DNA of 64,000 nucleotides from contig AJFK01000612.1 in the NCBI GenBank assembly GCA_000467715.1, forward strand, positions 272,024-336,023, written 5' to 3'. The notes beneath the pieces were generated by a model. It was given only the letters and a program-made list of their open reading frames with translations. It had not been told where the DNA came from and searched no databases. This DNA is from Hysterium pulicare CBS 123377 (lineage: Eukaryota > Ascomycota > Dothideomycetes > Hysteriales > Hysteriaceae). This document shows, one piece after another, positions 3,021 to 12,290 of this stretch; position 1 is the stretch's first letter, and the number at the start of each line of letters is the position of its first letter. Position numbers and translations under genes: made by a program.

Positions 3021-6000
3021 TCAGGCCTCCAACCCGCCGCCGTATCGATGGTCGTTCGCATAATCTGCTAACCTAAGTTCCTATATGAATCGGTCAGCTT
3101 GGAATTTATGAAGATTAAGTTTGTGAGAGTTCATAAGGAAGCGCAGACCTCAGGAGAGAAATCGGAATAAGGTGGAGTAATGTTTATAGATTGGAAATGC
3201 TCGGTCACATATTTAGATCCGCCGAAGAAATATGCAGAGTATTCCAGGTCTTCTATTAAATAGGGAGGTTTTTCCATACCACTTGTGCCTGTAGAACTAG
3301 GCTTTGGTGTCGGTGTGCTACTGGCGGGTGGATTGCCGGTAGATGTTGCACTAGAACCAGAGTCTGCCAAACCGCTGAAAGCAGGGGTATAGTCTGCAAA
3401 GCTGAAAGCAGGGGTAGATTTTGTAAATCCGCTGAAAGCAGGGATAGAGTTTGGAAAAGCAGTGAAAGTAGGTGTAGATGAGCTTGTAGATGCCGAGGAA
3501 GAAAATGCCTTCGCGAAACCATCGAAACCACCAGAAGCAGGAGTGGATGAATTTGTAGCATCTGAGCTTGACTTCCCAAATAATAAATCGGCGAATGGAG
3601 TTTGCGATCCGACAGCAGGCCGGGGGGTTGATGAGCTTGTTGCAGTTGGACTTGGAGTCCCAAATGGTGAAGCTCCGGCTGCATTCTGAAAACTAAAAGT
3701 TGGCCGAGGGGTCGATGAGCTTGTAGTAGTTGGATTTGATGATGAACTGCCAGGGGAATTCTGCGATCCCGCGTTTGCGGCTTGACTATCACTTGATTGT
3801 TTGTTCGCACTTAACCCGCTGAACAAACTCGGCGACTGCCTTGGGGGCGTGCTGGCTGTCTCTGAAGGCGAGCCACCGAACAAAGTGTTTGAGTTTTTGC
3901 TTGCACTGGAAACTCCAATGCCAGGTGAGTGTGACCTGCCGGCACTGATTGTGGTGCTTGGCCGGAATACACTCGGGGACGTCCCAGAAGAGGGCGCATT
4001 GAATGAGCGTAGAGCAGAGTCCCAAGTATCCAACGAAGATCTCGGAGGCTCAGGGCTTGCTGCAGTAGCTCCAGTGGAAGAGGCCGACGGTCTTGTTCCA
4101 GAGCCTCCATGGACTTGATCAAGTACTGATCTTACAGGCGTCTCGCTAGAGCCTCCAGGGGAAGGTTGAACGGATTGGCTTTGTGGAGAAGAATTACTGT
4201 TGCTCCTCAATTCAGTGGCATTACGCACTGGAAGTGTCCTATCAGTGCGATTATCACCGCCTCCATTGTTTTGATTGCGACGCCCGGCTAAGCATAGTTA
4301 GCACTCCTCAGGTTATCAGACAATGCAAGAACATCACCACCCTGTCGTTCAAGAGAGGGGGTTATGAAATCATAAGAAGCTAATGTGGAACTACTAACCT
4401 CGGGGAGTCATCCCTCTTATCGTCTTCAGCGCGTTTTCTAATGCAGTTCTTGTCTTGTTGAGAAGGTTTCGCTTAACTACTGTGTCTCGAGACTCGGCGG
4501 CTACGAGTTTTAACTTTTCGTCGTCCATGTCTCTGATGATGGCGGAAGAAAAGATCTTTGGTAGATCCTTCAGTAAACATTGTTCAATGGCAAGTGAAGC
4601 GACATTGTTCAGGAAATTCAAAACGGTAATCTACCATGATGCAGTCAGTTTCCTTCCCACCAGTATTGAGACTGCGCGGAATGAAGACAGATAAAGGAAT
4701 ACAGTGTTGTCTGCAACCAGGCATTATAAGCCGAGTGCAGTAACATCTTACCTCATAGTAAGCTTGCATGGAATCCAAAGTTCCAGACGAACCATACTTG
4801 TCATCATTTGGAGACTTCTGCAGAGATAGTTGAGCCACGAGCTCATCAACTGAAGGCAAGGATGACGGATCCTTTCTCGTGGCTAACTCTCGCCGCACAG
4901 CCTCCACCACCGGCTTGGCGATCTTGTTCTCTTGCAGTATTTTCATTTTGAAAGCGAAGTATGGATCTATGTTAATAGGGTCAAAATCTCGGTGTGGAGC
5001 CAACAGTTCCTGAAGTTTGCTCAAAACTGCTTGCAGTCTGTCCTCCATGGCGGGATCAATGATCTGAACAAGCAGTTGATTGCACGTCGTCTCCTGGGCT
5101 ATATGACTGAGCAGTAGATCTAGGAAGTTCTTGACCGCGGTCCAAATGGCTTTTATGTGGTCGGTAGCAATTTCTTCCCAGGGTTCAGATTGCTGTTGAA
5201 AGAGTGAACCGATCAAGAGCGGATTAGAGATCCCAGGGAGCTCATTAGCTCTCTCGCTTCGCGCCAACGGGTCGACATGTTCCTGAAGAAATTGAGATCG
5301 TGATATCACCCTAGGGTGATCCAATCGAGACTCAACAGCAGCATTGTCGTTCGGACCTGCGTCTTCAGTAACATGCCACTTGTGCCCCTTCTGTAGCATT
5401 TCACTGGCGAATTGGTCATTGAGATTACGGACTATAGCCCTCAGCCTTTTCTCCAACCCCTCCGATGACGAAGCGTCGCCGAAAAATGATATCCGTCGAT
5501 ATCTTCCTTCTAGGGCTTCCTTAGTATACTCGTAGAATTTGTCACTGATTTCGGAAAGGTAGTTTTGCTGATCTTTAGCAGATTCGCGCGGCTCTCCAAT
5601 TTTCTTCAAACTTATATAGGTTTGTTCGAGGTCGTGATTAAGGCGTTCTGTGATGGACGGCAATTTCGAACGGATGTGACCCAGGAGCATCATGCTAAGT
5701 TTCGTTCGTAGATCATTGACTCCAAGCCCTACTGGCAGCCCTGCCCAGTTGCTGTTATCGAAGAATTCCTTTTCAACGATATCTCTTTCTTCGTTTGTAG
5801 TTGCCTGCTCCCCGTAGGTTCTGTTTCTGACGACATGCCAGCCATGCTCGAACTTAATCCGACTATTCCGTGCAAGATCCAGATATTCCTGTTCTCTCTC
5901 TGATCCGGATGGTAACAAATCAGGTTTGGTGATAATTCCTAACGTCCGCTGGCCGTTTGGAACTATGCTTCTGACATGGTTCAAAACCACCTGGATATCG

Positions 6001-6626
6001 ATGTCGTTATGAGCAGAGATGACCGCTAGGATGATACTATTACTTTGCCGCATATAGTTTTTAACGAGGGAGGTTACGAGGTTAACGTCTTTATCGTCAG
6101 GACGATAGTGAATTAGTCCCGGAAGATCCACAATCGTCAGTGGAGCCAAGTCAGGGGCAACTATGTCCACTTGTAGGATGTCCTCAAAGAAAGCATTGGA
6201 GCCCGTTCCATGATTCTCATTCATACACTCTCTGGCAGCATTGATCAAGTCTGGAAAACGATCGGGAGAAGAGAATGATCCTTGGAATCGCGTAAGACGG
6301 TCCCGGTCCTCTGAGTTCCGTGATGCAGATGGAATAATTCGAGTGCTGATTGAATGTGGGCCTCGACGGAGGCGAAGCTCACATGCGAACGTTGTACAAA
6401 CATTGCTCCGCGTTGGGAATCTCACCCTCGTTAAAGCCTCGAGCACAGAACTCTTGCCGGACGACTGGTCACCACAAACAATTAGCTGTGGAAGTCCGTC
6501 ATCTCCGAGGAGTTTTCCGACTCCTTCAGCTCTGAGCTTATCGATCGCGTTAAGCAGTTGATTTTCGTCCTCAGAAAGAAGTTGAGCAAAAGTAGTTCCG
6601 GTCAAAGTGTCAGCTGGTCCCGCCAT
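3021..6626 (-). CDS. Dynamin-like GTPase with FG-rich, GLEBS-like C-terminal tail
   Basis: Four exons: 6626-4752, 4630-4399, 4287-3149 and 3080-3021, about 1,101 aa, ATG at 6,626. The GTPase domain has the P-loop GDQSSGKSS at residues 52-60, switch residues CTTF, DLPG and TKPD. A dynamin middle/stalk region follows, then a GTPase effector domain near residues 628-700. The order resembles Mx-type and fungal dynamin-like proteins, with no PH domain or transmembrane segment. Unusually, about 380 Ser/Thr/Pro-rich residues follow, with FG dipeptides (TLFGG, SPFGT, LLFGK, FFGG) and PAFS repeats. The last exon joins to give QSINITPPYSDFSPEELRLA, then a DY and basic residues, resembling the GLEBS motif of NUP98. 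Membrane or polymer remodelling at the nuclear envelope is inferred. The last intron (donor GTCTGC) is supported by motif match only; without splicing the frame ends at 3,131. Confidence 0.85.
3374..3444 (-). repeat. Imperfect tandem repeats encoding PAFS units
   Basis: The plus-strand word GCTGAAAGCAGGG recurs at 3,374, 3,401 and 3,431, spaced 27 and 30 bases, with a degenerate fourth copy near 3,461. On the coding strand each copy encodes Pro-Ala-Phe-Ser followed by GF, FA or GL. Spacing in multiples of three keeps the frame, so the tail probably varies in length by repeat slippage. Confidence 0.7.
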
Positions 6627-7645
6627 TCTAAATAGTATTGTGAGTGATAGTTGAGTGCTAGGTCAGACCGTTGATGAGAGAGTCGGTTGGGATCATTGTT
6701 GGGAAAGGAATTAGGAAAATAGACGGATATGAGACTACCTTATAATAGCACAGAATCGAAGGACTAAGCGATGTGAGAAACGGGGTAGCAAGAAAGGGGG
6801 CTATGCATGGTATCAGCCTCACAAGGCTCCGAGGTTCTTTGCACCCTTGAAAGAGGCTTGATCGATAGCTTGGGCGCTTTGGCCAAGGGTTCCAAGAACA
6901 ATTCGAACAATGGTTCTCGGAGATCATGTTGTCAGTCATATAATTTGCTGAATCGATCATAAATTGAAGACCGACAGTCTTTGGAAGGATTTCAAAGAGA
7001 GACACGGCTTGAAACGCTTTCGCAAACGCCAAGGATTCGAACGCCGCGATAACATTGCATATGTACGCCCAACGCCACGAAGTGTCGCTGTGCCGCGATG
7101 GTGCATTATCCAATCGGGGTGCCATGGTTGCTTGCGACAAGTGCTCGAACTGTAAAACATGAGACAGTTGCGAATCCGACAGGGAGAACACCGTTGGAGC
7201 CCGAAGGCAGTAAGTAAATCCAAGTACTATTGCGTGTTCATTTCAATGAAGAAGTGAGGTTGGAGTTAACCCGTGCGGGACGGATCGTCTATGGTCTATT
7301 CCTAATTCGGCCCTCGCGTTCCCGAAGTTCTGTGCTCCTTGCCCCTGAGATGTTTCTTCGGCGTCAATATTCAGGGCGCTATCTTTGTAGTTTGAGCAGC
7401 GTACAATGGCATACATTTCAGACTACTTAGGACAAAATACATATCTATCTACTTGTGCAACTCGAAACCATGCCACTAGTACCAACGGACCTAATGCTCT
7501 CATTCGTTCTCAAATCCTCCAAACTCAGAAACAGACAGGTAATTAGACTTCACATTGACTACATGTACAACCAAGCGTGGTATTTCTCGTTTCCTCGCCC
7601 ACAAACCGATTCTCAAGCTCCTGCTACGAGGTCAGTTAAAGAAAT
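6627..7645. other. Spacer between the two dynamin-like genes
   Basis: About 1 kb that should hold the promoter of the downstream dynamin-like gene (start at 6,626) and the 3' end of the upstream one. A minus-strand open frame at 6,658-7,191 starts at GTG and shows no recognisable domain. I see no supported gene. Confidence 0.5.
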
Positions 7646-10390
7646 CTAGCAGGCTATGCTTGTGGAAAACCCACCGATTCGCTCGACCTGATTGAAAACA
7701 AACCTTGGGGGCGACAGACCGTTTGTCTTACTGTTCCCATACGATTGTGGAAAGCCGTTACCAGCATCGCTTTCTTCTGCCGTTTCACACTCGGAGTCGG
7801 ACTCGTTAGAAGGCATTCCACGCCAGGGCATTTTTGGCCTAGAACTCGTTGGTCTTGATGCTGTGCGTAGGGGTGACCGGGAGGTTGATGATTTAAACGC
7901 GTTTGGTGTCGTTGAGCTGCCTGATGAATGGGTGCGTCCACGAGGTGGTGCGCTATCTGCGCTAACACTGAGTCTTCTGAACGCCGAATCTAGATGATCT
8001 TCTGCACGGTTATTAGATGAACCATCTATAAGGTTCATCGATACAAAGGCCTCTTACCTTCAGTCACAGGTGTTTCTTCTTTCACGGTAGAGTACTCAGT
8101 TGTCTGCGGAGCTCTGCGCGGTGCGTTCTTTCGCATGGTGGGACCCTTGCGCATGACTTCAGCATATAGGTTAGTTCCAATTCCTGTCATTCATTTCGGT
8201 GTGAACGGCCTACCATTGACAGCTTGGTATGCCTGAAGATTGATGGTGCGTCGTCCAACTTTCAAATCTTTTATCTTCTCATCAAGTGAAGCACGCTCTA
8301 ACTGGATATCCTCGGATTCAGCGGCAATCGCCTCGAGTTTATCGTCATCCATTCCTCGAATCGTTGTGGGAGAGAAGATATTCGGGAGGTCGGCGACCAA
8401 ACAGTTCTCAGCAGCAAGGACAATCACATTGCTAGTGAATACTGAAATTGCGGCCTTTCAATGCATTATGTTAGTTTTACAACCACACCAAGTAGCTTGA
8501 GCTCAATATGGGGATGTAAGGAGTCTCGTTCTTCCATACCTTGTAATAAGCTTGCATACGGTCAAGGATTTCCGAATTCGCTATGTCATCGATAGACCCA
8601 TGACTATCAGTCAGCAATACGTCTCCGGACCCTGGCCCAGATATTCCATTTTCATTCCTGCTGACAAGACGCTCGGCCTGCAATCTGTGGATCTCTTCTA
8701 GATATCCTGGATCGTACGTAATCGGATCGAGAGAAGTATAGGGTTTAAGCAATTCTTCGAGCTTCTCCAGGACGATACGGCGTTTCTCCTCTAGATGCAT
8801 GTCGACATGTTCCATCATAAGAACATTGTAGGTTCGAGAATCCATCAGACTACTCAGGCAGAGCTCAAAGAATAATCTGACCGCTTGCCAGACAGAATCA
8901 AGGTAAATTTCACCTATTTGCTTCCAATGCTCGGACTGCTCCCGAAACAGATGTCCGATGATGAGGGGATTCCTTGTTCCTATTAGTTCCTTACCTCTGC
9001 TCTCCTTTGCCAATTCACTAATTTTGTCGAGATAAACTGAACGACTGATAGATTTCGGGCCATCGCAATAACTGTCTGAGAGGAGTGAAGATGCATCGTC
9101 AGATTCTTCAGGGTGGGACGGTGGCTTGGCCAGGATCTGCCATGTATGACCTTTTTGGTACATCGTCTTTGAAAACTGAAGGCTATGTTCTTCGATTCTG
9201 GCACGCAGTCTTCTAGGATCCCCATTTTGCGACGAAATCCAGAAGAATTTCTCATTGTAGGCACCGCTAAGAGCGTTCTCAGCAAGTCTCTGGAATTCCT
9301 CACTTCTGCTAGTGAGGTAGTCGTGTTGTGCTGCTTTGCTGGCCCGAGGCTTCCCTAGTTGGTCTCGTCGTATCTGACTTTTCGCGATGGCTGCGTCGAT
9401 TTTCTCGACGAGTAAAGGTAGCTTGGTACGAATCTGCTGCAAGAGAACTTTGCTGAGCCTAGTCCGTAAAGCATCAATGCCCATGTTGGAATCGAATTGA
9501 GCAATAGACCCCCATCTGCTCTTGGAAAAAAACTCTTTCTCCGCAGCATCTCGTTCATCATCTGAGCTGTCGCGCATTTGGAAGTCTCGATTTTTGACGA
9601 CATGCCAGCCGAGTCGAAGAGGGACCAAAGAGTTCTTGGCTAAGTCGAGATAACCTTGTTCCTTCTCGGAGCCTGAGTCCAGAGTATCTGGCTTTGTAAT
9701 AATCCCAAGAGTACGGAAACCGGGCTTGTCGAACTCTTGTGCGTATTTCAACACAATCTGATTCGCTCGCTCATTTTGTGCCGAAACTACAGCTAAAATG
9801 ATGCTGCTTTCACTGCTCATATAATTCTTCACCATGCGCTGTACAAGTTCAACGTCATCTGAGGTCTGCTTTTCATTCTCAAAATGAATTAGACCGGGCA
9901 GATCAACAATCGTTAGCGGCGAGCAGTCCGGTCCGGTGATCTCAACCTTTAGGATATCATCAAAAAATGCATTTGATGTTGCCCTAGAGACAATCTGCAT
10001 ATGCTGTCTTGCCTCTTCGATCAAGGAGCCAAATTCCTCAGGTGAGGAAATGGATTGCCGAAAAGTTTCCAGCCGTGTCTTCTCTGGGGGTTTTCGACTG
10101 TCTCCCGCTCGGATACTACCCACAATTTGTTGTTTCGGAGCTTTTCGGAGGATTAATTCGGTGGCGAAAGTTGTGCAGAGGCCATCCCTGGTTGGGAATT
10201 TGAGTCGAGTGAGGCCTTCAAGTACCGAGCTCTTGCCAGAGGACTGATCACCACATACTATGAGTTGAGGCAACTCAACATAATGGTTAAGCCCTTGAGC
10301 TCGTAGCTGATCGATGAGATTGAGGAGCTCCACCTGATCCGAAGAATGGAGCTGGTCAAGGGAAGTTGCGTCAAGAGCCTTGGTAGCCAT
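7646..10390 (-). CDS. Dynamin-like GTPase, tandem paralogue without FG tail
   Basis: Four exons: 10390-8540, 8454-8214, 8156-8058 and 8025-7646, about 856 aa, ATG at 10,390. The P-loop GDQSSGKSS is at residues 47-55, followed by CTTF, DLPG and TKPD motifs, the stalk, and a GTPase effector domain near 620-690. The intron at the end of the stalk (after MQAYYK) sits where its neighbour has one (after MQAYYE), which supports origin by gene duplication. Its tail is short (about 160 aa), Arg/Ser-rich and low-complexity, with no FG repeats or GLEBS-like end. The catalytic motifs look intact, so GTP hydrolysis and self-assembly are expected, but the cellular target is unknown. The last exon's stop at 7,646 is the simplest model; a further short exon cannot be excluded. 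Confidence 0.85.
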
Positions 10391-12290
10391 ATTTGTAAAA
10401 CAATGTGAAGAGCAGTAATAAAAGATGAAAAAGAGATAAGATAAACTGCTGCTTTACAAGACGTAGAAGATGGATTTGAGGTTGATCTGACTGTTTGTTA
10501 ATAGGGACGAAAGCTTTTTTGAAGTCTCGCCAAATGTTGAAGCGCCCAGGAGAAACGGACGACACATTCAGTTCTGGGTATGTTTGAGTTCGAAGGAACT
10601 TGTTTCAGGCCATATCGGCTCCTCCGAGTGGGCAGAGCATAGGAGGAAGTCGTCAGCAGAACCCCAGCTTCAGGTCTTGATACAGGAAGAGCTTCAACCC
10701 CTAGACGAAGGATCTTATTCTTAGCTATTCGAGTTCACGTTGATAAACAGATTTCTACGCCGTCAAGATAGTATCCGTACTAGCATATCGCTTAGGCTCG
10801 TAGCGAGGTTGGAAAAAGCGAGAAAGCTAATACAAAAACGACAAGAAAAATCAACAAACTCTATAAAGATTTATATATAACAAACAATCTGATAGGATGC
10901 TCATGCAGGTGGCTTACATGGAGTGCTACCTCGCCGAAAAGAGCATTAGGAAATTGGGAACTGCTGTGCCGCACCGACGAATAAGAGCTGACTCTGAGAG
11001 CGCCTTGCTGCAGACTTTGATACAAGTCCGCGAAGCGAAAGTTTCAGAAGTCAGAACCATGCATTTGTTAAGGATTTAGTAACGCTATGCACATGCCATT
11101 GACATGAGTTCAAGAAAGTTGAGAATGAGGGTAAGGAATGAATGGTCAACTTAGTCCGAAGAGATCACTTGTGACTAACCACAATCACTCCCAAACGGTT
11201 CAAATGACATATAGTGCAGCAGCAGACTACTCAAGTCATCCTTCACGCTTGAGAGTCCTAAGGTAAAAGAGGAGAGTATTGTAAAAGGAGACTAATTGAG
11301 GGGAAAGACCTACGTTGAGCCAATTCAAGAAGATATATTGTGTGCTACGAAGACCATTTCATCTGGAGAAAATCTCAGGCGCCCTTGTCCTAGAAATGAA
11401 CAAAGACAGACTAATGGTGTGGGATGTGGGTTCCAAGGTTCCCAACCAAAACATGTTTAATGGTTGGGGCTAGTTGATCGTTCTTTATCTGCATCGTCCA
11501 CTGCCCCGGTTTGGTGCTCATGTAGGTAGCCGTTATCTGCGCAAACCGACGGCTGGTCACTCAAGGCTTGAAGTATCATTCTAGGAATTTGACTGATTCA
11601 AAAGCGTTTATTGCGGTGCCTGGAATAGATGGACAGATATGTAAAGAGGTGAATGTCTAAGCCCCAAATTAGGATGGTGGGCAATGGCGGGTGATTCGCT
11701 CACGCGGGGTCCCGTCCACAGCCATTGTGACCTTGCCCTGCAGCACACCAGCACATCCTGTTGACGAATGCAAGACCTGGCTAGGAACATGGTCATCTCC
11801 AACTTCGCTCATCTCTATTCTCTCTCCTTCTTCCTTTCGCCTTCTACTGCTACCTTTCTTCAGCCTCGTTTGAGGTAGTCCGGAGAATTTGCGATTGGCG
11901 AGACGTTGTTTGAGCACAAACCACGGCTCTTGCGCCGGTCAAACAGGTCATCAACTGCCACCAGCGTCAGCACCGTCGAATCTTGAGCGCTATCTCCAAT
12001 CTACGGGCCTGAGGACAGCTACCATCAAGGCGCAGCTGACTACCCTTATACTATACATCTTCGCAACCTGTTCTCGAGGTCTCTGGCTATCACCAGCTCT
12101 ACGTGGTCATTCTGGAGCGGCTACGCACGACGTCTAAACAAAGGACCGATTTCGTCACCCGCTAGCGTTCTTGATACCACCTCAACCTCCCCTCATCTAG
12201 ATATCTGGCATAACGCCCGTTGCGGTTCTCGACAACCAATTTGAGGCGATTAAACCATTAAATACCGGAAGAGCCGTGGGAGGAAACAAT
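10391..12290. other. Intergenic region, divergent promoters
   Basis: It lies between the minus-strand dynamin-like gene (start 10,390) and the plus-strand gene at 12,291. No coding frame is supported. A pyrimidine-rich strip near 11,803-11,868 on the plus strand (runs of CT, TTCC) resembles the 5' UTR or core-promoter tracts of filamentous fungi and could belong to the 12,291 gene, perhaps with a 5' UTR intron. Confidence 0.5.

Follow-up and report, generated by a model that had tools for sequence, protein, structure and literature searches.

The window, a stretch of 64,000 nucleotides that forms the final 64 kb of contig C433, carries a four-exon gene on the minus strand, from 6626 to 3021, whose product, with the exons read from the sequence, has 1101 amino acids. 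It is accompanied by a tandem paralogue, named here gene 2; beyond 10.4 kb the window was covered at the level of open frames. The genome comprises 37.2 Mb, and its introns, together with its Nup98-Nup96, Vps1, Dnm1 and Mgm1 genes, would suit a filamentous ascomycete. The features referred to below are the following.

4752 to 6626, minus strand: exon 1, 625 amino acids from the start codon onward, covering the GTPase domain (P-loop GDQSSGKS, DLPG, TKPD) and the larger part of the stalk
4631 to 4751, minus strand: intron 1, 121 nt, GTAAGA...GTAG
4399 to 4630, minus strand: exon 2, with the end of the stalk and a weak, sub-threshold GED-like match at residues 620-697
4288 to 4398, minus strand: intron 2, 111 nt, GTTAGT...TTAG, with a branch-point-like GCTAAC
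3149 to 4287, minus strand: exon 3, encoding the Ser/Thr-rich tail with three PAFS and four FG, followed by half of the GLEBS, as far as Glu1082
3081 to 3148, minus strand: intron 3, 68 nt, GTCTGC...ATATAG, with a branch-point-like GCTGAC
3021 to 3080, minus strand: exon 4, encoding the remaining half of the GLEBS (ELRLADYANDHRYGGGLEA) and the stop codon
7646 to 10390, minus strand: gene 2, an Mx-like paralogue in tandem, with 44% identity in exon 1 and a short tail rich in Ser; later exons assigned by eye

GCTAAC in intron 2 and GCTGAC in intron 3 resemble the branch-point consensus, and the intron 3 donor GTCTGC is atypical with respect to the usual fungal donor consensus. The acceptor of intron 1 fuses YYE with ITVLNF, and its counterpart in gene 2, read by eye, is YYK-AAISVF. 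Left unspliced, the frame of exon 3 reaches a stop just past SPEVCASL. The interval 3021 to 4287, which a first-pass annotation of this DNA had singled out, corresponds exactly to exons 3 and 4. Since the sole Met in the 399 residues of the tail is residue 1040, the tail is most likely part of the product of the upstream dynamin exons, and a separate downstream gene encoding it, which we also considered, is unlikely.

The N-terminal portion is that of a dynamin-like GTPase, as the first-pass annotation had read it. In the Pfam searches, Dynamin_N scored 106 bits against a cut-off of 27 and the Dynamin_M stalk 75 bits against a cut-off of 28.5, and the P-loop, DxPG and TKxD motifs are present. 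The GED match lies at the expected place (620-697) and is sub-threshold, with 14.1 bits against a cut-off of 21.4; a PH domain was absent from the 10 Pfam families listed up to E=1, and exon 1 had no match in NCBIfam. Among 43 matches in the PDB, the top eight were all Mx2 or Mx1 chains (109-103 bits), aligned over the GTPase/BSE part, with Vps1 (93) and dynamin-1-like protein (90) behind them, so that the lead of Mx is modest. As a control, the Dnm1 of the same genome gave 28 PDB matches at E<=1e-60 and none of them was an Mx chain.

We then compared GTPase domains in trees that contained two animal Mx rows only and were built without plant DRP4 and without a named MxF. Dynamin_N had 16 matches at 13 places in the genome, eight of which entered tree 1; C68, C4 and C36 were left out because the dynamin core of the gene had no match there at E<=1, and C32 and C127 are Dynamin_N places outside the tree sample. 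In tree 1 (10 rows), five Mx-like loci of this genome grouped with Mx1 and Mx2 apart from Dnm1, Vps1 and Mgm1 (99/98), and constraining the candidates with Dnm1/Vps1 gave an AU p of 0.028. Tree 2 (11 rows), from which C483 was dropped for its long branch and to which the Chaetomium Vps1 and L030, an Mx-like locus described below, were added, kept the Mx grouping at 93/98. The AU test on tree 2 gave p=0.077 for the grouping with Dyn/Drp and p=0.053 for that with Mgm1, neither rejected at 0.05, so that the alternatives to the Mx grouping are disfavored and not all of them rejected. The signature residues follow the same division: a GDQS P-loop together with TKPD occurs in all five candidates of the genome and in both Mx rows, Mgm1, Dnm1 and Vps1 have GSQS and TK[MLV]D instead, and the P-loop of L030 is of the Mx type. 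Taken together, structure matches, trees and signature residues make a membrane-remodeling role less likely than an Mx-like one, and they place the GTPase with Mx, so that the earlier description of human MxB as a functional analogy only was too cautious. The most fitting description of the GTPase, judged by its sequence, is that of a fungal Mx-like (MxF) protein.

Six-frame profile searches did not find a GLEBS in the region of gene 2 (6701-11000), at C101, C80 or C483, or at the Vps1, Dnm1 and Mgm1 loci, and none was found in L030. Thus, none of the five other Mx-like loci (gene 2, C101, C80, C483 and L030) has a detected GLEBS, and the tail may be lineage-specific. Gene 2, which would lack the GLEBS, offers a natural control for experiments. 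The C483 locus (L022, G000:C483:66480) encodes a very divergent Mx-like GTPase with the P-loop GDQSAGKS and forms the longest branch of tree 1. A scan of the genome contig collection returned one Mx-like gene, L030, located at 4309-6570 of JAPYPR010000045.1, a contig of an Erythrobacter MAG, where the GTPase is spread over several frames as if split by introns; it is probably fungal contamination of the bacterial MAG. The viral contig collection, scanned with the GTPase and with the alignments of the GLEBS and of the Mx-like proteins, gave no relative.

The tail is Ser/Thr-rich, with 32.6% Ser+Thr and 12.8% charged residues over its 399 residues, close to the approximately 380 residues first proposed. 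The PAFS repeats noticed in the first pass are three in number (shuffle p about 5e-5), and FG, FSG or FSF occur nine times against 2.9 expected (p=4.5e-4), both patterns having been chosen after viewing the sequence. The FG-richness that the same annotation had claimed did not hold, as there are four FG dipeptides against 2.1 expected (p=0.15) and 11 FG or FS against 7.3 (p=0.07). The density of FG per 100 amino acids is 1.0 in the tail. In the Nup98 of the same genome it is 7.9 over the first 560 residues of the frame, and charged residues amount to 3.0%. Nucleoporin_FG had no match at E<=1 in the Pfam scan of the full protein. With FG at chance level and at a density far under that of the resident Nup98, we rejected a tail contributing to an FG permeability barrier. 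The tail is phenylalanine-patterned and is not an FG-repeat domain. The linker is probably disordered. An AlphaFold2 model made from a two-row alignment gave no usable structure (mean pLDDT 34.8). Of the original observation, then, the dynamin GTPase, the Ser/Thr tail, PAFS and the GLEBS treated next were retained, and the abundance of FG was not.

The first-pass annotation had also proposed that removal of the intron at 3081-3148 rebuilds a GLEBS, and this was borne out. Splicing from 3148 to 3081 yields ...TEHFQSINITPPYSDFSPEELRLADYANDHRYGGGLEA, and it is alone in doing so among the 14 GT-AG pairs tried. Aligned with the two other GLEBS sequences of the genome, this product scored 106, against 66 for the next pair and 56 for the unspliced frame, and 400 shuffles of the DNA downstream of the donor never reached 106 (their mean was 63 and their maximum 83). 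The six best GT-AG pairs have donor 3148 in common, so that the test says more about the acceptor than about the donor. Intron 3 sits exactly between the two glutamates that align with E201 and E202 of Nup98 and its retention would thus remove one of them. The product of a transcript that keeps intron 3 would have only half of the GLEBS, which may amount to an isoform switch.

Within the genome, the tail GLEBS is identical in 19 of 33 residues to that of the resident Nup98 (C559) and in 16 of 31 to that of a second GLFG protein (C596); against human Nup98, 13 of 26 aligned columns are identical. We called C559 a Nup98-Nup96 because it combines GLFG repeats and an internal GLEBS with HFSSYG, a putative autoproteolysis-like site, and is followed by a frame that is probably Nup96-like. 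The C596 locus (L012/L025, G000:C596:126810) encodes, in a single frame of 919 residues, another protein that combines GLFG repeats with a GLEBS; by eye it is without an autoproteolytic or Nup96 part, and its Pfam matches were Nucleoporin_FG and a sub-threshold GLEBS only. The window GLEBS scored 106 against the resident Nup98 and the two GLFG proteins scored 100 against each other, which makes the window copy an equally good GLEBS. Its EE pair, residues 1082-1083 within EELR, aligns with E201/E202, in the numbering of the aligned Nup98 chain (range 183-213), and the likeness to the Nup98 GLEBS extends past EELR through DYA...RYG. The local alignments to both GLFG proteins start only at TEHFQSI, with the N-terminal hairpin arm outside the alignment.

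Searched against the genome, the 41-residue motif gave at least four matches, namely each half of the window copy plus C559 and C596, so among the matches listed the only other GLEBS-like loci were these two GLFG nucleoporin-like ones; an intron-split, diverged copy could escape such a search. A degenerate EELRxxDY scan, a pattern blind to the intron-split window copy, had three matches, in the two GLFG proteins and in an unrelated frame at C543. Its backwards control also had three, and the pattern alone therefore proves nothing; for the window copy, a chance EELR match was rejected by the splice and shuffle test (0/400).

The Pfam model Nup98_GLEBS (PF21240) scored 14 bits for the final 64 residues against a cut-off of 27, and it was absent from the matches at E<=1 in the scan of the full 1101-residue protein. 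The two resident GLFG proteins are also below the cut-off, with 25.3 and 22.5 bits (20.6 and 17.9 in another scan), and since even the Nup98 of this genome misses it the model is insensitive here. A three-row GLEBS profile, two of whose rows are nucleoporin-like, reached E=6e-7 with Nup98 in the structure 3MMY. At E<=1 it matched ten PDB chains: seven of Nup98 or Nup98-Nup96, one Peptidase S59 domain-containing chain with the same aligned letters as the Nup98 chains, and two designed chains. A PDB search with the tail GLEBS alone returned no Nup98 chain at E<=10. On its sequence, the identification of the tail end as a Nup98-type GLEBS is well supported. Of the interpretation first offered, the GLEBS reading with its EE pair is supported and the FG permeability barrier is not.

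The expected partner is encoded in the same genome, where C56 is a Gle2/Rae1 gene (E=4e-62, 48% identity to human RAE1). C56 has Lys and Arg at the two positions aligned with the salt-bridge residues of human RAE1. According to PMC3783196, salt bridges link Nup98 E201 and E202 to R216 and R172 of Rae1, and mutation of the corresponding glutamates of Nup116 is reported to impair association with Gle2.

With modest confidence, we favor a protein in which an Mx-like (MxF) GTPase, a Ser/Thr linker and a C-terminal Nup98-type GLEBS would be docked on Gle2/Rae1 as a pore gatekeeper. The sequence itself shows the order of the domains, exons that join in frame, intact GTPase motifs and a GLEBS core with its two key glutamates; docking, multivalent display and gatekeeping are inferred. 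The GLEBS tail would bind the top face of the WD40 domain of Gle2/Rae1 and so anchor the GTPase either at nuclear pores or on export complexes that carry Gle2, and because Mx proteins oligomerize an Mx-type assembly would present many GLEBS tails. As a gatekeeper in that position, the GTPase could stop large nucleoprotein particles from invading, either LTR-retrotransposon particles or nuclear mycoviruses. LTR retrotransposons must reach the nucleus. Changes in nucleoporins alter the mobility of yeast Ty1/Ty3, according to PMC5918913. As described in PMC6264145, MxB, the closest functional model, is found at the nuclear envelope, needs an N-terminal triple-arginine motif that binds nucleoporins, oligomerizes and blocks nuclear import of HIV-1 cDNA. 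The passages of PMC11789081 considered here report no fungal Mx-like protein with an antiviral function. We advance only tentatively the more specific proposal of a fungal Mx-type restriction GTPase that became pore-anchored independently, by capture of a Nup98 GLEBS, and guards the pore from particles of retrotransposons or viruses; intron 3 might then switch the protein between a docked and a free isoform.

The same GLEBS could serve ends other than anchoring. It could be a Gle2 sink or decoy that competes with Nup98, or that mimics a Gle2-Nup98 surface attacked by parasites, with the GTPase responding. The resemblance to Nup98 beyond EELR, through DYA...RYG, fits this idea, as do a report, cited in PMC3783196, that overexpressed Nup98 GLEBS mislocalizes Rae1 and keeps poly(A) RNA nuclear, and the description of Rae1-Nup98 as a target of viral proteins; we nevertheless regard it as unlikely. 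Least probable of all, in our estimate, is that the partner is Bub3 and not Gle2, which would tie the GTPase to mitosis or transcription. PMC9203020 does describe GLEBS domains of Bub1 and BubR1 that bind Bub3, and a Neurospora BuGZ that binds Bub3 through its GLEBS and needs both glutamates. However, the matches listed in the search of this genome were only the two GLFG proteins, and no Bub1/Mad3 chain was among the ten PDB matches of the three-row profile, which leans to Nup98 through its two nucleoporin-like rows.

The picture drawn in the first-pass annotation, a housekeeping dynamin of the nuclear envelope or of pore assembly that is targeted through Gle2 and remodels nuclear membranes, agrees with the intact GTPase motifs and with the presence of a GLEBS, but the GTPase groups with Mx and not with Vps1, Dnm1 or Mgm1, and a GLEBS was not found in any of the five other Mx-like loci examined. 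In addition, Langley et al. (PMC11789081) state that Mx proteins can act without membranes and argue that housekeeping matches the turnover of Mx-like genes less well than virus-driven selection does, and we consider the housekeeping role quite unlikely. It is improbable, too, that the tail is not made at all, either because intron 3 is usually retained, the protein ending ...SPEVCASL with half a GLEBS, or because the gene is decaying. The atypical GTCTGC donor would suit such a case, yet splicing restores the motif exactly in a way that none of 400 shuffles equaled, intron 3 has its branch-point-like GCTGAC, and the frames are long and open with their GTPase motifs intact.

With respect to known systems, the protein is close to MxF1/MxF2 (Langley et al., 2025; PMC11789081), which are multicopy fungal GTPases of the dynamin superfamily that group with animal Mx; there are five Mx-like loci here and five MxF in Aspergillus fumigatus. 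The difference is the GLEBS tail, since "GLEBS", "Gle2" and "nucleoporin" occur zero times each in the text of PMC11789081. Human MxB (MX2) is likewise an Mx GTPase and the best-scoring solved structure for the GTPase of this gene. Its location is the nuclear envelope. It reaches nucleoporins through an N-terminal triple-arginine motif (PMC6264145), where the window protein has a C-terminal GLEBS with predicted Gle2 binding. Nup98-Nup96 and Nup116 share the core SxEELRxxDY and both salt-bridge glutamates, but here the GLEBS lies at the very end of a GTPase and has few FG dipeptides next to it, and its EE pair is split by an intron, whereas the motif is uninterrupted in C559 and C596. BuGZ, Bub1 and BubR1 are also non-nucleoporin proteins that use a GLEBS for a WD40 partner; that partner is Bub3 (PMC9203020), and the GLEBS here is Nup98-like. 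Among the literature matches listed, no dynamin or Mx protein joined to a GLEBS was found. What appears to be new is thus an Mx-like GTPase with a predicted pore-docking module; fungal Mx-like proteins themselves are known.

The paper that named the fungal Mx-like proteins calls them uncharacterized (PMC11789081). A Gle2-docking motif on one of these GTPases gives a concrete and testable hypothesis for where it resides and how it works. Should it hold, Mx proteins would have gained a link to the nuclear gate on at least two occasions and by different means, through an N-terminal basic motif in MxB and through a borrowed nucleoporin motif here.
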